A stretch of 45,300 bases of DNA from a virus: IMG/VR virus record IMGVR_UViG_3300034096_000720, positions 1 to 45,300 of that record; one strand, 5' to 3'. Positions within the stretch are counted from its first letter, which is position 1, and each line of letters starts with the position of its first letter. The translations under genes and the position numbers were made by a program. Positions 13,653 through 41,444 of this stretch are shown piece by piece. Under the pieces are notes generated by a model, which was given only the letters and a program-made list of their open reading frames with translations, searched no databases and had not been told where the DNA came from.

Positions 13653-15443
13653 ATGAATTCTAAAAAAACACCAGATGTCAAAGAATCTATAAGTTATGGG
13701 TCAGGAGAATATTCTTCTGGCTTTGGTCCGTTTTGGAATGACAGCGGGGCGTATAATCCGTTCCAATTTCCTTCTGCCGGGCAAAACGGATGGATTGATC
13801 CTGTTCAGCTTGCGATACGCGATAATTACCTTTCTGGTGAGCAATTACCTGTTTATCTGACTTGGTGGCAGTTAAAGTCAATTCGCGATAGAGCAAGGTA
13901 TGTTTATGCTGTAAATGAGTTTGCACATGGTATTGTAGGCTGTTTTCAGAATTTTGTTGTTGGAGCGACTGGATTTAAATGGCGTGTAGCAAATATTGAT
14001 TTAAGAACACCAGTTCCTGAAGAAATTCTTAAAAGATGCCAAAATACATTGGATATCTTTCGAGAATATAACAATATGGTCGAAGTGGAAAATGAAATCG
14101 TCTATAGGCTACATGTTGACGGCGAAGTGTTCATTCGTAAGTTTCCACAAGCAAATGGTATGTTAGTAATCAGGTTCATAGAACCTGAGCTTGTAAGGGG
14201 CTATGCAACGGATATCGGATCACCAAAAGATTCATTTGGGATTATTGCGGAAGAAGATGATATTAATTCTGTTCTTGGCTATCAGGTTATTGAAAAACCT
14301 TGGGAAACAAAAGAACCTAAATTTATTCCTGCATCAGATATTATTCACATTAAGTTTGGAACGAATGCGAATGCAAAAAGGGGTTTAACTTCCTTTTATC
14401 CAGTATTTCAGAATTTAAACAATTGTGAGGATATCCTAGCTTCAACTGTGACTATGGCAAAAGCTAGGGCGAAGATTGCGATGATTCGCAAAGTATCTAA
14501 TGTTGCTCCTGATTCAATGTCTAACCTTGTAGATTCTACAGTGGATGCAACTATTAACGATAATAATCCAATGACAGGTAGTAACATGAAGCTTGAACGC
14601 TTTGGTTATGGTTCTATCATTACAACTCCTGAAAATATTAGTTATGAATTCCCTGGAGCAAATTTAGATTCAGCAGGTTTGATTGAAGTCCTTCAAGCTA
14701 ACCTTAGATCACTTGCCACTAGATTTGGCATTAGTGAAACGCTTGTTTCTGGTGATGCTTCTAATAATAACTATTCATCCGCATTAATTGCAGAAGCACC
14801 AGCAAGAAGAACCTTTGAGAGATGGCAAGGTATTGTAGGTAGATCACTTGCCGAATGTAGGTTCGAACCAAATAAATCCCTTGCATGGACACAACTTAAT
14901 TTAGCTGCTGAACACGGAATAATACCAAAAGAAATTTTAAAGAATTTAAAAGTTACTGCTGAAGCTTGTTCACTGCAATCTCGCGATCATCAAAAAGAAG
15001 CAGAGATGAACAGAATGTATTTAGATATGGGTGTCAAGTCAATTCAAACAATTAGAAGCGAAGTTGGTTTAGATAACGACACGGAAGCAAGTAACATTAA
15101 CACACATGCTAATATTAAACCTAGTGATCCATCTGCAAAAGCAGAAAAACCTAATGCAGCACCAAACGAAACACCCAATGCAGCACCAGAAGCAAATAAA
15201 CCTGAAGATAATAATGCAGAAGAGGTTCAAGATACTGCTTTGAATGGTGCACAAATAACATCACTTGTAAATGTAGTAACGCAATGTGTACAAGGTTTGT
15301 TACCAATTTCCGCTGGTATGGCTATTGCAAAATCTTCATTCCCACTAATTCCGCAAAGTGTTATTGATGCAATTTTCAAAGATATTGAGGTTAAGAAAAC
15401 ACCTGATCCTGAAAAACCTAAAGTGCAACCTATGGACAAATAA
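13653..15443 (+). CDS. Portal protein
   Basis: 596 residues. The portal forms the dodecameric ring through which DNA enters the capsid. Family features are RDRARYVYAVNEFAHGIVG near residue 75, DGEVFIRKF, the FIEPELVRG strand, DIIHIKFGTNANAKRGLTSF near residue 230, and the tunnel-loop and C-terminal region with ISETLVSGDASNNNYSSALIAEAPARRTFERWQ. The last 130 residues are Pro/Asn/Glu-rich and probably disordered. The ribosome site before the ATG is weak. The protease/scaffold gene follows 25 bp downstream, the usual head-gene order. Confidence 0.85.
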   Translation: MNSKKTPDVKESISYGSGEYSSGFGPFWNDSGAYNPFQFPSAGQNGWIDPVQLAIRDNYLSGEQLPVYLTWWQLKSIRDRARYVYAVNEFAHGIVGCFQNFVVGATGFKWRVANIDLRTPVPEEILKRCQNTLDIFREYNNMVEVENEIVYRLHVDGEVFIRKFPQANGMLVIRFIEPELVRGYATDIGSPKDSFGIIAEEDDINSVLGYQVIEKPWETKEPKFIPASDIIHIKFGTNANAKRGLTSFYPVFQNLNNCEDILASTVTMAKARAKIAMIRKVSNVAPDSMSNLVDSTVDATINDNNPMTGSNMKLERFGYGSIITTPENISYEFPGANLDSAGLIEVLQANLRSLATRFGISETLVSGDASNNNYSSALIAEAPARRTFERWQGIVGRSLAECRFEPNKSLAWTQLNLAAEHGIIPKEILKNLKVTAEACSLQSRDHQKEAEMNRMYLDMGVKSIQTIRSEVGLDNDTEASNINTHANIKPSDPSAKAEKPNAAPNETPNAAPEANKPEDNNAEEVQDTALNGAQITSLVNVVTQCVQGLLPISAGMAIAKSSFPLIPQSVIDAIFKDIEVKKTPDPEKPKVQPMDK

Positions 15444-20676: not shown

Positions 20677-21057
20677 ATGGCTGTTTTATCAGGTAGACTT
20701 GGTTCAATTGATTTTGGTGCATTAACAAACATTCCAGCAACAAACATTTCAGTTAATTCAAAAGCTGAAGTTGTTGACACAACTAATTTTACAGGTTTAG
20801 GTTTTGATTCTCATGCAATTGGTATGTATTCCGCTGAAATAACTTTAGACCTGTTAGAAGTTAATTCTGGTTTCGGATTGAAACAAGGTCAATCAGGAAC
20901 TGTAACAATAAACGATGGTGACGATGTAACACCCGGTGCAGTTACTATTACTAATTGCCTGATCACAGGTATTAATTATGATGCTGGTGCAAAAGATATC
21001 CAAAAAATGTCTATTACATTAGCAACTAAAGGTGCTTATTCTATCATTGTTGGTTAA
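20677..21057 (+). CDS. Tail tube-like protein B, paralogue of A
   Basis: 126 residues. YSAEITLDLLEVN and NCLITGINYDAGAKDIQKMS align with the matching segments of the gene before it, so the two are probably an ancient tandem duplication. One may form the tube and the other a decorated or tip version. AAGGAG before the ATG. The roles are inferred from position. Confidence 0.65.
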   Translation: MAVLSGRLGSIDFGALTNIPATNISVNSKAEVVDTTNFTGLGFDSHAIGMYSAEITLDLLEVNSGFGLKQGQSGTVTINDGDDVTPGAVTITNCLITGINYDAGAKDIQKMSITLATKGAYSIIVG

Positions 21058-21072: not shown

Positions 21073-21495
21073 ATGGCAGATTCAGTAGGAAATATTTTGA
21101 ATTCATCTGGTGAAGGTTCACAAACGATTGAATTTAAGGGGAAAAAATATACTGCAAGTTTGATTACTCAAAAAGTAAAAGCTGATTTTGAAAAGTCGAT
21201 GGAAAAAAAAGCTTTAGATTCAATTTTTACTTTGAAGGATCGGCTTGAACCTGTTGAATTTCGAGAAGCTGTAAGCGGTGTTACTCGTGATATTGCTTCA
21301 GGTGTTTATTCTTTTGGATCTGAAAATTGTGTAGCGTTTTTAACAACTCCTGTAGGTGTTTTAACATTCGCTTCAATACTTTTTTCTGCTCCTGAAAATG
21401 AAATGCAAGATTTAGTTCTTTCTGAAAAAGAAAGATTTGAAGCAGTAATGGAAATCGTAAGGGAAAAAAGTTTCCCAAACGCAAGGAGGGAGTAA
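21073..21495 (+). CDS. Tail assembly chaperone, short form (G-like)
   Basis: 140 residues, mixed charge, helical, placed between tail tube and tape measure genes as in lambda gpG. Near its 3' end the zero-frame sequence T TTC CCA AAC (21471-21480) is a double slippery site, with a nested hairpin 4-7 bases downstream. A fraction of ribosomes should shift back one base and make a longer fusion (see 21441-21845). AGGGGG precedes the ATG. The chaperone coats the tape measure during tail assembly. Confidence 0.85.
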   Translation: MADSVGNILNSSGEGSQTIEFKGKKYTASLITQKVKADFEKSMEKKALDSIFTLKDRLEPVEFREAVSGVTRDIASGVYSFGSENCVAFLTTPVGVLTFASILFSAPENEMQDLVLSEKERFEAVMEIVREKSFPNARRE

Positions 21496-21845
21496 GTTCA
21501 TCCAAAAGATATGAACCTATTCCCCCTCCAAATTTAATTAATTACTATGTTCACTTAATGGATAAACCTTATCTATTAAGGCCTTGGGAGATAGAAAAAT
21601 TAACCGATATGCAGATTGTTGAACTGTACTACAGAAAAAGAGATGATAAAGGAATACCACTAGAAATAAACGATGAAAAGCATGAATGGGATACTAGGAA
21701 AAAGATAGTTGCAGAAGATGTTATGATGTTCAACAAGTATCAGAATTTTATGAAAACGGGTTCTATGTTAGGTGGTTCACCCAAGCAATTGAATAAATCT
21801 TGGGTTGATAAATTTGGAAAAATACCGGAAAAACCAAATGGCTAA
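21441..21845 (+). CDS. Chaperone extension (T-like), made by -1 frameshift
   Basis: The -1 frame relative to the G-like gene is open from 21441 to 21845, well upstream of its first ATG at 21558, and no ribosome site precedes that ATG. After the slip the extension adds about 122 residues, giving a fusion of about 257 residues. The extension includes RPWEIEKLTDMQIVELYYRK and DEKHEWDTRKK, helical and charged, like other T-domain proteins that contact the tape measure. Separate translation from 21558 is less likely but possible. Confidence 0.8.
   Translation, partial: SSNGNRKGKKFPKRKEGVSSSKRYEPIPPPNLINYYVHLMDKPYLLRPWEIEKLTDMQIVELYYRKRDDKGIPLEINDEKHEWDTRKKIVAEDVMMFNKYQNFMKTGSMLGGSPKQLNKSWVDKFGKIPEKPNG
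21471..21529 (+). promoter_or_regulatory. Programmed -1 frameshift signal
   Basis: Overlapping heptamers T TTC CCA (21471-21477) and C CCA AAC (21474-21480) both fit X-XXY-YYZ in the zero frame. Downstream, GGAGGG (21485-21490) pairs with CCCTCC (21524-21529), and inside it GTTCAT (21496-21501) pairs with ATGAAC (21511-21516). The zero-frame stop (21493-21495) lies within this structure. Confidence 0.85.
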
Positions 21846-24678
21846 AGATATTCCAATTGATTCCGGTTCAGATTTTACAGCAGATGTTGTAAAAGCTGTT
21901 GAAGCAATTGCCCAAAACATAAAGAATTCATCAACCGCTTTTACAGGTAATTTTGATAAAGTTTCTAATTCAATTAAGACAATGCAAAAAGCGGTTGTAA
22001 CTTCTGTTAAGCAGATTAAATTAGTTGCACCAGTAAATAAAAAAGATGTTAAGAAGGAAGAAACAAAAGATTTAACATCTGAATTTTCAAGAATTGTAGA
22101 CGCAATTCAGAATATAAAATTAGTTTCACCGGTTGAAAAACAAATCAAAAAAGAACCTGAGAAAAAAAAATCAAAATCTGAAAATAAAAAAGATACTATA
22201 AAAGAAAAAGAATCTAAGGCTGTTAAACCTAAAGATCCTATAAATTATACGAAGCCAATTTCATCAGGTTTTAAATCAATCATTACAGCAATTGCAACCT
22301 CAACAAAGCAAGTTATATCAGCAATTTCTAAAATCAAATTAGGTAAAGAATCTAAAGAATCTGTTAAAGAATCTTCCGAAAAATCATCTAAAGAATCTAT
22401 TAAAGAATCTAAAAAAGAATCTGTTAAAGAATCTAAAAAAGAATCTGTTAAAGAATCTAAAAAAGAATCTGTTAAAGAATCATCTAAGGAATCAGTTAAC
22501 AAGTCTATTAAAGAAAAATCATCTAAAGAGTTGATTAAGGATAAATCAGTTAAGGAGTCAATCAAGGATAAATCAGTTAAAGAATCTAAAGAAACAATCA
22601 AAGAATCTTCTAAAGAATCTAAAAATAAATCAAAAGATTATTCAAAAGATATTTCTTCAGGTTTTAAATCTGTAACAACTTCTGTAAAGGATATGACAAA
22701 AGAAATTGTTGCATCTGTTGGAAAAATAAAACTAGATGTTGGTAAACCTGAGAAATCAAAAGCAGAAAAGAAAAAAGAAACAGAAGGTAAAGCAAATTTT
22801 GCTGAAGATATTTCTTCCGGTTTTGCTTCTATTGTTACCTCTGTTTATGAAGCATCTATACTAATTACTAACGCTGTTCTTGAAATTGGAACAGAGATTG
22901 TAAACGAATTAACAAAAACTAAAAAACAACCTAAAAAAGAAACTCAAGAAAAAAGCGGGCCTGATTTTACTCCTGATTCATCTATGAGTGAAAAAGAAAA
23001 ATCAGTTATTAAAAAAGAAGGTTACAAAGATAAATCAAATAAAGAACAACCTAAAGCAAAAGGTATTTCAATAGCTAAAGCAGTTATTGAAATTCAACAA
23101 GCAATTATCGTTTTAGGTAAAGGAAAAGAAGAAGATAAGAAAAAAGATAAGAAAAAAGATGTAAGTACAGGAAAAGATAAGAAAAAAGATGTAAGTACAG
23201 GAAAAGATAATTCAATAAAATCGATTTTTGAAGATGTCAAAAGCACTATAAGCAGCTTTATGAAAGGTAATAAAGCTGAAGGAATTAAAAAAGCAAAAGG
23301 TATTGTTGGAAATGTTATACAAAACAAAACAAGTAGTTTAATGGGTGGTGGTAAAAGTTCGCCAAAAATGGGAATTAAATCAGGTGTTGGTGCTGCTGGT
23401 GGTATTGGTGGCAAGATTGGAGGGCCAGCATTAGCACTTTTAGGTGCTGGAATTTCAAAACTAATGCAAGGTGCTGGAATTGCTGCTACTGCTATTAAAA
23501 AGCATGGGATAGAACTTGCAAAAAAAATACCCGGTGCAGATAGAATTATTAAAGGTTCTTTAGTTGATGGTAAAGGAAATAAAGCTGCAAAAAAAGTTGG
23601 TAGTAAAATTGGTGGTTCTGTTGGTGCAGAAGCAGCGGGTGCAGCAGCAGCGGGTTTAGGAATGGCTTTGAATTCTGTTACAGGTGCAGTTGGTATTGCT
23701 TCAGGTGCAATCGGAATGTTTGGTTCATACATCGAAAAATCTAACCCTGCATTGATGGAACAATTTGGAATTATCCTTAACGATTTAGGTGGTGTTATTG
23801 GTCGATCTCTTGCACCAGTAATACAAACACTATTACCTTTGTTTCGCCAATTTGCCGATTATATTGATTATGCAATGAAGTTAATCCAACCTTCCATTGA
23901 TGTTGTAATTAACGCATTTAAAGCATTAGCCGGGCCTCTAATGGAAGCGGGTGCAACAATTTTAAAAGTGTTTGCTCCTGTATTAGTTTTTGCTGCAAAA
24001 ATTCTTGAAGGTTTAGTAATTATTGTTACTCCCTTGATTGATGCTTTTTCGGAGTTTCTTGAAATAATTGGTGAAATGTTTACATCATTTTTTGAAGGTG
24101 TTGGAATAACTGAAATTATGATGAATGGTTTTAAATTAATGTCTGATGCTGTAAAGATTTTAGTAGGTGCTATAGGTTGGGCATCTGGTGCATTCTATCA
24201 GGTAATAGGTGCAGCAATAAAAGGTATTGGAACTTTGATTGATTGGATTCCCGGTACAGGTGATTTAGGTAAAACATTAATGAAAATGGGGGAAGATGCT
24301 GATAAAGCTGGTGCAAAATTAAGGGAATCAGGTGCTGATATGATTTCTTCAGGTTTAACAGGTAAAGAAAGAGATAAAAAACCTCCTAAAATTAAACCAA
24401 ATGCTTCAATAGGTGCTGGTGTTAAAGAAGCTCAAGAGGTTTCAATCTCAGGTATTGGTGATGATATCCGTAAATCGGCAATGATGGCAGGGCAAGGGCA
24501 AAAAACACAAGAACAAGCTTTAAATGATATTAGTAAAAATCTAGAAAAGAACAATTTAGCAGCAGCAGTTGCACAAGGAATGATTGAAGCACAAACAAAA
24601 ATGGGTGATAAACCACAAGGATTTAAAAACGATACTGAATATTCTGGTTCTGGTGGTTCTTTTGAAGCACCATCATAA
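21838..24678 (+). CDS. Tape measure protein
   Basis: 946 residues from the ATG at 21838, which overlaps the chaperone stop. It sets tail length. Residues about 100-440 are charged helical sequence, with lysine/glutamate/serine repeats (KESVKESK units, near 165-260) and a second repeat (KKDVSTGKD, near 438-456). Hydrophobic, glycine/alanine-rich segments follow, for example near 515-560 and 595-635, and about 700-760, as in tape measure proteins that reach the host membrane. No peptidase or transglycosylase domain was recognised. The protein fits a tail of roughly 140 nm by the usual 1.5 A per residue rule. Confidence 0.88.
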   Translation: MAKDIPIDSGSDFTADVVKAVEAIAQNIKNSSTAFTGNFDKVSNSIKTMQKAVVTSVKQIKLVAPVNKKDVKKEETKDLTSEFSRIVDAIQNIKLVSPVEKQIKKEPEKKKSKSENKKDTIKEKESKAVKPKDPINYTKPISSGFKSIITAIATSTKQVISAISKIKLGKESKESVKESSEKSSKESIKESKKESVKESKKESVKESKKESVKESSKESVNKSIKEKSSKELIKDKSVKESIKDKSVKESKETIKESSKESKNKSKDYSKDISSGFKSVTTSVKDMTKEIVASVGKIKLDVGKPEKSKAEKKKETEGKANFAEDISSGFASIVTSVYEASILITNAVLEIGTEIVNELTKTKKQPKKETQEKSGPDFTPDSSMSEKEKSVIKKEGYKDKSNKEQPKAKGISIAKAVIEIQQAIIVLGKGKEEDKKKDKKKDVSTGKDKKKDVSTGKDNSIKSIFEDVKSTISSFMKGNKAEGIKKAKGIVGNVIQNKTSSLMGGGKSSPKMGIKSGVGAAGGIGGKIGGPALALLGAGISKLMQGAGIAATAIKKHGIELAKKIPGADRIIKGSLVDGKGNKAAKKVGSKIGGSVGAEAAGAAAAGLGMALNSVTGAVGIASGAIGMFGSYIEKSNPALMEQFGIILNDLGGVIGRSLAPVIQTLLPLFRQFADYIDYAMKLIQPSIDVVINAFKALAGPLMEAGATILKVFAPVLVFAAKILEGLVIIVTPLIDAFSEFLEIIGEMFTSFFEGVGITEIMMNGFKLMSDAVKILVGAIGWASGAFYQVIGAAIKGIGTLIDWIPGTGDLGKTLMKMGEDADKAGAKLRESGADMISSGLTGKERDKKPPKIKPNASIGAGVKEAQEVSISGIGDDIRKSAMMAGQGQKTQEQALNDISKNLEKNNLAAAVAQGMIEAQTKMGDKPQGFKNDTEYSGSGGSFEAPS
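22340..22630 (+). repeat. KES-rich repeats in the tape measure gene
   Basis: Degenerate repeats encode K-E-S-V/I/K units. Three near-perfect 24-bp units start at 22414, 22438 and 22462. The repeated part may change tail length by recombination. Confidence 0.85.
23146..23205 (+). repeat. 30-bp tandem repeat in the tape measure gene
   Basis: Two identical 30-bp units (23146-23175 and 23176-23205) encode a 10-residue lysine-rich unit with the motif KKDVSTGKD. Identity at DNA level suggests recent duplication. Confidence 0.88.
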
Positions 24679-39653: not shown

Positions 39654-40108
39654 TCGAACCAGATACATTTTATGAGATGTTAGAAAATATCCAACATGGT
39701 GTTGATATTAAACTTGCTATGAAAGCATTTGGAGTTTCTAAAAATGATTTAGAACATTGGCACAAAGTCGAATGTATTAAAGCAAAAGCACAAGCCACAA
39801 TAGCAATGCAGAAAATAATTAACGAACACGGTGCTGAGGATTGGAGAGCAATGCAATGGATCATTGAAAGAAATAACAAGGCAAAAGAAAATGAGCAAAA
39901 CATCGAAATCGCAATTAACAAACAAATTGCTAAAGAATTGGCAAAAGGTATTATTGAATCCGGCTTTACAGGATCAGTTAGATCAAATAAAGATTCTGAA
40001 GGACTTTCGGGAAGCGAACAGGAAGGTTATTCAGATCCCGAAGAACCCTCGGGCGTATTGCGATTACCTGAAAATAAAATTAACAAATCAACAGATGGAA
40101 ATTTTTGA
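39650..40108 (+). CDS. Terminase small subunit-like protein
   Basis: 152 residues. The first 95 residues look like a small terminase DNA-binding region: a helical start (FYEMLENIQHGVDIKLAMKAFGVSKNDLEHW, helix-turn-helix-like) and a helical body ending DWRAMQWIIERNNK. The last 45 residues (Gly/Ser/Glu-rich) are read from the same DNA as the start of the large terminase gene in another frame and look unstructured. It recognises phage DNA and stimulates the large subunit in related systems. Position directly before terL supports the call. Confidence 0.65.
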   Translation: MIEPDTFYEMLENIQHGVDIKLAMKAFGVSKNDLEHWHKVECIKAKAQATIAMQKIINEHGAEDWRAMQWIIERNNKAKENEQNIEIAINKQIAKELAKGIIESGFTGSVRSNKDSEGLSGSEQEGYSDPEEPSGVLRLPENKINKSTDGNF

Positions 40109-41444
40109 AGCAGTTGCGAATGGTTCTAGAAAAGTTTTAGTTCGGTCTGCTCATAATCAAGGTAAAACATTTCTTTGTGCAGTTATTGCTTCTTGGTTTC
40201 ATGACCATTTCACTCCTTCTGAAGTTCTTATATCTGCTCCAGTATCTCAACAAATACGGGATGGTGTTTTTAAGGAACTTCGAAGGGTTCGTTTAGGTGA
40301 CCCGAATTGGATGCCTAAAGCAAACAGGTTAGAAAAATCACCTTCGCATTATATTCAAGGTTTAACTGCACAAAAAGCAGATGCATTTCAAGGAAGGCAT
40401 TCAGCAGGTGGTTTGTGTATTCTTTTTGATGAAGCTTCAGGAATTGAACCTGTTTTTTGGGAACGAGCAGAATCAATGCTTTCAGCTAGCAAAGAAAATT
40501 GTTTATGGTTCTGCATCTTTAACCCTTATGATTCATCTTCACCAGCGTATTTTGCAGAACAAAATTCAGAATGGAATGTATTTCATTTATCAGCACTTGA
40601 TCATCCAAATATTGTTTATAAGCAAGACTTAATAGCTGGAGCAATTAACTATGAATATGTGACGAACCGCTTAAAAAACGAATGCAGATCGGCTATGGAC
40701 GGAGAGGAAAGCGAGCCTGGATATTTTGAATTTGAAGGTAAAGGTTGGATGGTAGAAGATCCTTTATTCGATATTCAGGTTCTTGGAAGATATCCAACTA
40801 AGGCGATTAATTCAGTTTGGTCCGCACTGTGCCTAAAACAATTACTTGATCCAATAGAAATGAATGAAAATTGGTCAATTCAAATTGGTGCAGATCCCGC
40901 CCGCTTTGGTGATGATCGATCTTGTTTAGTTGTTCGCAAGGGTAGTTGCATTCTTGAAATGAAAGAATATCGTGGTTTATCAACAAAAGAATTTGCAGAG
41001 AAGATAAAAGAATTTTGCAATAAATATGCTAGTAAAAACCAACCTGAATATAAAATTCCTGTGCTAATTGATGAAGGTGGTGTTGGTGGTGGTGTTGTTG
41101 ATAATCGTGGTCAATATCTGTTCTATGGTGTTAATTCATCATCTGAAGCAGTACGATGGAGAGAATTTCCTAATACCCGATCTTCCCTATGGTTTGAAGC
41201 CTCAGAACTTGCAATTGAAGGAAAGATATCTATTTCAAGATTACCTATCAATGAACGGGAAAAACTTTGCGAAGAACTTAGAACCCCTATTTATGTTGTA
41301 GATTCTATTGGCAGAAGGGTTGTAGAGTCTAAAGAAGTAATGAAAAGAAGGTTGAAGCATTCCCCTGATATTGCAGATGCTTTCAACCTTTCATTGATGG
41401 CAATTCCTAAAATTGGAATTGAAAAGATCATTGGGAATTTGTAA
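39891..41444 (+). CDS. terL: Terminase large subunit
   Basis: 517 residues from the ATG at 39891 (AAGG about 10 bases upstream). Packaging ATPase and nuclease: a variant Walker A RSAHNQGKT (85-93), Walker B LCILFDEAS, and the nuclease part with GADPARFGDDRS near 333-344, LIDEGGVGGGVVD and HSPDIADAFNLS. The N-terminal PRAYCDYLKIKLTNQQMEIF segment matches the family start, so translation must begin upstream of it, inside the small terminase gene: 218 bases overlap. The stop end overlaps the converging primase gene by 17 bp. Confidence 0.9.
   Translation: MSKTSKSQLTNKLLKNWQKVLLNPALQDQLDQIKILKDFREANRKVIQIPKNPRAYCDYLKIKLTNQQMEIFEAVANGSRKVLVRSAHNQGKTFLCAVIASWFHDHFTPSEVLISAPVSQQIRDGVFKELRRVRLGDPNWMPKANRLEKSPSHYIQGLTAQKADAFQGRHSAGGLCILFDEASGIEPVFWERAESMLSASKENCLWFCIFNPYDSSSPAYFAEQNSEWNVFHLSALDHPNIVYKQDLIAGAINYEYVTNRLKNECRSAMDGEESEPGYFEFEGKGWMVEDPLFDIQVLGRYPTKAINSVWSALCLKQLLDPIEMNENWSIQIGADPARFGDDRSCLVVRKGSCILEMKEYRGLSTKEFAEKIKEFCNKYASKNQPEYKIPVLIDEGGVGGGVVDNRGQYLFYGVNSSSEAVRWREFPNTRSSLWFEASELAIEGKISISRLPINEREKLCEELRTPIYVVDSIGRRVVESKEVMKRRLKHSPDIADAFNLSLMAIPKIGIEKIIGNL

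Follow-up and report, generated by a model that had tools for sequence, protein, structure and literature searches.

A conserved candidate −1 frameshift signal at CCCAAAC in a putative tail assembly chaperone gene of a metagenomic virus lineage

Introduction

The slip site of phage lambda is of the G_GGA_AAG type. Frameshifting by −1 in the tail assembly chaperone genes is conserved among tailed phages, with lambda gpG and gpGT as the reference pair (Xu, Hendrix and Duda 2004, as cited in PMC5009743). Haloarchaeal tailed viruses also shift between g and t, at G_GGA_AAC in HCTV-1 and A_AAA_AAC in HCTV-2, signals that have been termed mammalian-like (PMC5009743). In Escherichia coli, the IS3-family and dnaX signals combine a heptamer with a downstream stem; rules for the distance and stability of such stems have been given, and the best motifs have AAG as the A-site codon (PMC4066793).

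The locus described here resembles lambda G/GT in its position between the major tail and tape-measure genes, in having a second, overlapping ORF in the −1 frame, in carrying an in-phase XXXYYYZ heptamer shortly before the first ORF ends, and in the predicted synthesis of a long and a short product from one start. It differs from lambda in that its proteins show no recognisable resemblance in sequence to any known chaperone family, in that CCCAAAC takes the place of the lambda-type heptamer, and in its strong, conserved nested stem 3–7 nt downstream, the register of which is lineage-specific. With HCTV-1 and HCTV-2, it shares an AAC A-site codon in a tail chaperone gene; those viruses are, however, archaeal and have another first codon, and the likeness is one of features. 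Like the IS3-family and dnaX signals, it consists of a heptamer and a downstream stem, whereas those signals typically have AAG or AAA in the A site, and an upstream Shine-Dalgarno stimulator is tentative here. It appears to be a known kind of phage strategy, found here in proteins without a match among named families.

Gene layout and relatives

The window covers the complete 45,300-base record of an uncultivated, presumably freshwater virus, and the features of the G/GT locus and its flanking genes given below lie on its plus strand. The gene order is major tail protein (20677–21057; weak match to phrog_1407, E=1.6e-4), G/GT, and tape measure protein (21838–24678, 946 aa; weak match to phrog_1535, E=6.2e-4), with two overlapping ORFs between the flanking genes, the second in the −1 frame. 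The first, a G-like tail assembly chaperone ORF in the 0 frame (21073–21495, 140 aa), ends in AGG GAA AAA AGT TTC CCA AAC GCA AGG AGG GAG TAA, the stop codon (21493–21495) falling at the stem. The −1 frame was expected from the initial annotation to be open from 21441, and this was borne out, with a TGA just before it (21438–21440) and a stop at 21843–21845. Counted from the slip, the T extension (21480–21845) comprises 121 codons plus the stop, giving a predicted GT fusion of 257 aa, and the tape measure gene overlaps the last 8 bp of T.

A search of IMG/VR with G retrieved 48 loci, and profiles of G and T extended these to approximately 60 distinct IMG/VR contigs, with more scans adding almost nothing. 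One further relative, L057, came from a metagenome-assembled ‘Proteobacteria’ bin. Wherever the loci examined had a complete G, the T part followed in the −1 frame with an identical overlap. Neither G nor T had a tblastn match in 50,697 isolate phage records, that is, there was no cultivated relative in that collection; the absence of isolates, together with the sample codes, suggests that the lineage is aquatic.

The proteins had no usable match in PHROGs, Pfam or NCBIfam, the only repeated weak match of G being phrog_15590, of unknown function (best E=0.0023). The predicted model was mostly helical (mean pLDDT 74); Foldseek retrieved no match in the PDB and, in BFVD, two uncharacterised phage proteins with ~26% identity, the only kind of protein that the model resembles. 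For T by itself, the prediction was of low quality (mean pLDDT 65). As neither family nor fold searches put a name to the protein, the chaperone assignment was made by gene order and architecture, which point to a probable chaperone function. The designation of this ORF as a tail chaperone gene therefore holds as regards its position and G/GT organisation, and finds no counterpart among named families or folds.

The slip site

Two overlapping heptamers, TTTCCCA (21471–21477) and CCCAAAC (21474–21480), are present as first described, both in X_XXY_YYZ phase with the 0 frame AGT TTC CCA AAC. Their conservation was assessed in 38 nucleotide-distinct sequences. CCCAAAC (C_CCA_AAC) was intact in 37 of them and TTTCCCA in only 12, because the latter needs a Ser codon ending in T. 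The codons of the slip site were invariant: TTC in 35 out of 35 sequences (TAC in the three with Tyr), CCA in 37 out of 37 and AAC in 38 out of 38. Elsewhere in the same genes, TTC, CCA and AAC account for 24%, 38% and 21%, respectively, while TTT, CCT and AAT reach 76%, 51% and 79%. Third-position changes were counted on a tree built without the slip region. None was found at the Phe/Tyr, Pro or Asn codon; amino-acid-conserved codons elsewhere averaged 4.7 changes each, and only 1 out of 69 of them showed zero. The neighbouring upstream Ser codon underwent approximately 12 third-base changes, and all six Ser codons are used.

After a slip on CCCAAAC, neither the third base of TTC nor that of CCA is decoded in a separate −1 codon, and the heptamer itself best accounts for their being fixed. 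Two constraints act on the final C, as the next −1 codon (Arg; Leu in L111) begins with it. Being intact in 37 out of 38 relatives without synonymous change, and followed by a stem that covaries, the CCCAAAC signal is not a product of chance; on this comparative evidence, CCCAAAC is the selected site. The single relative with a broken heptamer, L030 (3396–3466, on a 4.4-kb metagenome contig), reads CACAAAC, with Pro replaced by Thr (ACA codon). It could be a mutant, a strain variant or a sequencing error.

The initial annotation had also raised the possibility of two slip positions. Use of TTTCCCA besides CCCAAAC would change the product by a single residue (SFPK-R instead of SFPN-R). The two heptamers are in phase in the window, and U_UU.C_CC.A is listed among the E. 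coli motifs that shift above 0.10% without stimulators (PMC4066793). However, TTTCCCA has been gained or lost approximately five times on the tree, on top of its presence in 12 out of 38 sequences, and it is impossible where Phe is replaced by Tyr (Ser-Tyr-Pro-Asn, in L050–L055 and the L105–L114 clade). No selection keeps it, so any use would be incidental, and we regard a second slip site as quite improbable. In E. coli, TTTCCCA might nevertheless slip measurably although selection kept CCCAAAC, because the list of motifs selected as shifty in that species contains U_UU.C_CC.A and lacks C_CC.A_AA.C (PMC4066793). A search of a library of phage frameshift papers, covering sources other than the heptamer table of Xu 2004, returned no relevant paper on CCCAAAC.

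Upstream of the slip site, the sequence AGGGA (21460–21464) includes an Arg codon that is only AGG or CGG in 38 out of 38 sequences, whereas AGA and CGT also occur in the other conserved Arg columns. AGGGA or CGGGA is always present, 9 nt before the slip site. In bacterial signals, an optional Shine-Dalgarno-like sequence lies 6–17 nt before the motif, in listed forms such as GGAG (PMC4066793). The listed forms occur in some relatives only, and the window itself carries none. Tentatively, AGGGA/CGGGA may act as a weak Shine-Dalgarno-like stimulator.

The stimulatory stem

A nested two-stem structure 4–7 bases after the heptamers had been proposed, and folding confirmed it. The outer stem pairs a 5′ arm at 21484–21494 (21484–21486 and 21488–21494) with the 3′ arm TATTCCCCCT at 21518–21527, and encloses an inner stem formed by GTTCAT (21496–21501) and ATGAAC (21511–21516). 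Depending on the pair from which it is counted, the structure starts 3 nt (first A-U pair, 21484), 4 nt (first G-C pair, 21485) or 7 nt (core, 21488) after CCCAAAC. The minimum free energy of 21484–21527 was −18.5 kcal/mol, compared with −8.4±2.0 kcal/mol for dinucleotide shuffles (z=−5.0; 0 out of 200 shuffles as stable), and, compared with all 65-nt windows along the late region (24,800 starts), the stem ranked within the most stable 1.1%. It falls within the distance and stability ranges given for bacterial −1 frameshifting, namely a downstream structure 4–10 nt after the motif with at least 7.6 kcal/mol (PMC4066793). A search of Rfam gave no match.

We compared the 65 nt following the heptamer with synonymous recodings that kept the protein and were weighted by codon usage. 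The minimum free energy was below the recoding mean in 28 out of 29 distinct sequences (mean z=−1.9), which are related and do not amount to 28 independent tests; the stem of L010 was no better than its recodings. The outer stem occurs in three registers, found in (1) the window, L009 and L047–L049, (2) L037–L045 and (3) L010–L035 with the L105–L114 clade; because the registers differ, one consensus stem common to every lineage was rejected. Within group (3), both sides have changed in 5 out of 10 pairs, and 94% of cells pair. Its covariation score of 0.299 was reached by 0 out of 500 shuffles and by no slid register. The window's own group shows little variation; there, pairing in the core of the outer helix is complete (100%), and one pair has been compensated. 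The inner helix has been swapped among relatives for differing complementary sequences, such as GTTCAT/ATGAAC and TTCCG/CGGAA. Selection has thus acted on the stem as well as on the heptamer.

The 3′ arm of the outer stem encodes part of PIPPPNL in the −1 frame (21513–21533 in the window). Its conserved proline codons double as stem sequence, so coding and RNA structure share bases, and the repeated CCN codons probably let the register slide. Pausing at the polyproline (PPP) was considered as a stimulator and set aside, as it lies ~15 codons past the slip and conservation is what speaks for it.

Translation of the T extension

T could also be translated independently of G, from the in-frame ATG at 21558–21560 or by termination-reinitiation after the TAA at 21493 by means of AAGGAGGG. 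All relatives keep the Met at 21558 (LMDKPY), and AAGGAGGG, at 21483–21490, is a strong Shine-Dalgarno-like sequence. As noted at first reading, however, no ribosome site precedes this ATG: its Shine-Dalgarno duplex energy in the window is +1.0 kcal/mol vs −9.9 kcal/mol for the G start. Among relatives, most T ATGs are at approximately +1 kcal/mol and the best reaches −3.3 kcal/mol, none of them convincing, against −4.9 to −9.9 kcal/mol for G starts. Furthermore, the protein read in the −1 frame is conserved before as well as after 21558, and the frame is coding directly downstream of the slip (PIPPPNL, LMDKPYLLRPWEI); variation in this frame shows a codon-position periodicity of 16:9:34. As for reinitiation, AAGGAGGG is not kept in relatives (AAGAAGG, AAAGAGG), lies inside the stem, and is followed, up to 21558, by no ATG, GTG or TTG in the T frame. 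Independent translation would also leave the frozen codons of CCCAAAC unexplained. It is, therefore, highly unlikely, and internal initiation at 21558 was rejected.

The frames might instead be joined by transcriptional slippage at the A6 run (21464–21469), which lies inside the 0/−1 overlap, or by a sequencing indel. The run is not conserved, most relatives having GATAAATC, and slippage there was discarded. Because the identical frame offset recurs in ~60 loci from many metagenomes, an assembly error is excluded. We consider this explanation extremely unlikely. Given the conserved −1 protein, the lack of a convincing Shine-Dalgarno at the T start and the unconserved A6 run, −1 frameshifting is the only well-supported route to T, and the gene model should show T as an extension reached by frameshifting instead of an ORF that starts at 21558.

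Frameshifting by −1 in a tail chaperone gene, as put forward by the initial annotation, is, thus, strongly supported by comparative evidence for this locus, which the major tail and tape-measure genes flank. Programmed −1 frameshifting very probably yields G (140 aa) and a little GT (257 aa) as lambda-like tail chaperones. Most ribosomes would read G to the TAA at 21493, ending the 140-aa product. In a minority, pausing at the nested stem while CCA occupies the P site and AAC the A site, both tRNAs would slip back one base onto CCC AAA; reading would continue to 21845, giving the 257-aa fusion, joined at ...REKSFPN-RKEGV.... On the lambda model, G would coat the tape-measure protein and the T part would recruit the major tail protein. 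The slippage, its efficiency and the chaperone function are inferred; the efficiency may be low, as C_CC.A_AA.C is outside the E. coli shifty list. An improbable, more far-reaching reading is that an unnamed chaperone family has fixed bacterial frameshifting on CCCAAAC with an Asn AAC A-site codon, on which E. coli ribosomes may shift inefficiently, keeping stem strength while the register moves between lineages, in a host whose ribosome or tRNA-Asn is perhaps unusually slip-prone.

The relatives provide ~60 natural versions of one frameshift signal, with a frozen slip site and a stem free to change register, a comparative set useful for asking what a stimulatory stem must keep. The locus also indicates that a G/GT chaperone pair can be recognised in phages where sequence search fails.

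Wider gene context

Terminase and portal genes are usually neighbours. In the window, the large terminase gene (phrog_2, 39831–41444) lies ~25 kb downstream of the portal gene (13653–15443), a distance suggesting that the record may be circularly permuted or its gene order rearranged. The best matches of the portal protein among isolate records were Helicobacter prophages, with ~23–25% identity.
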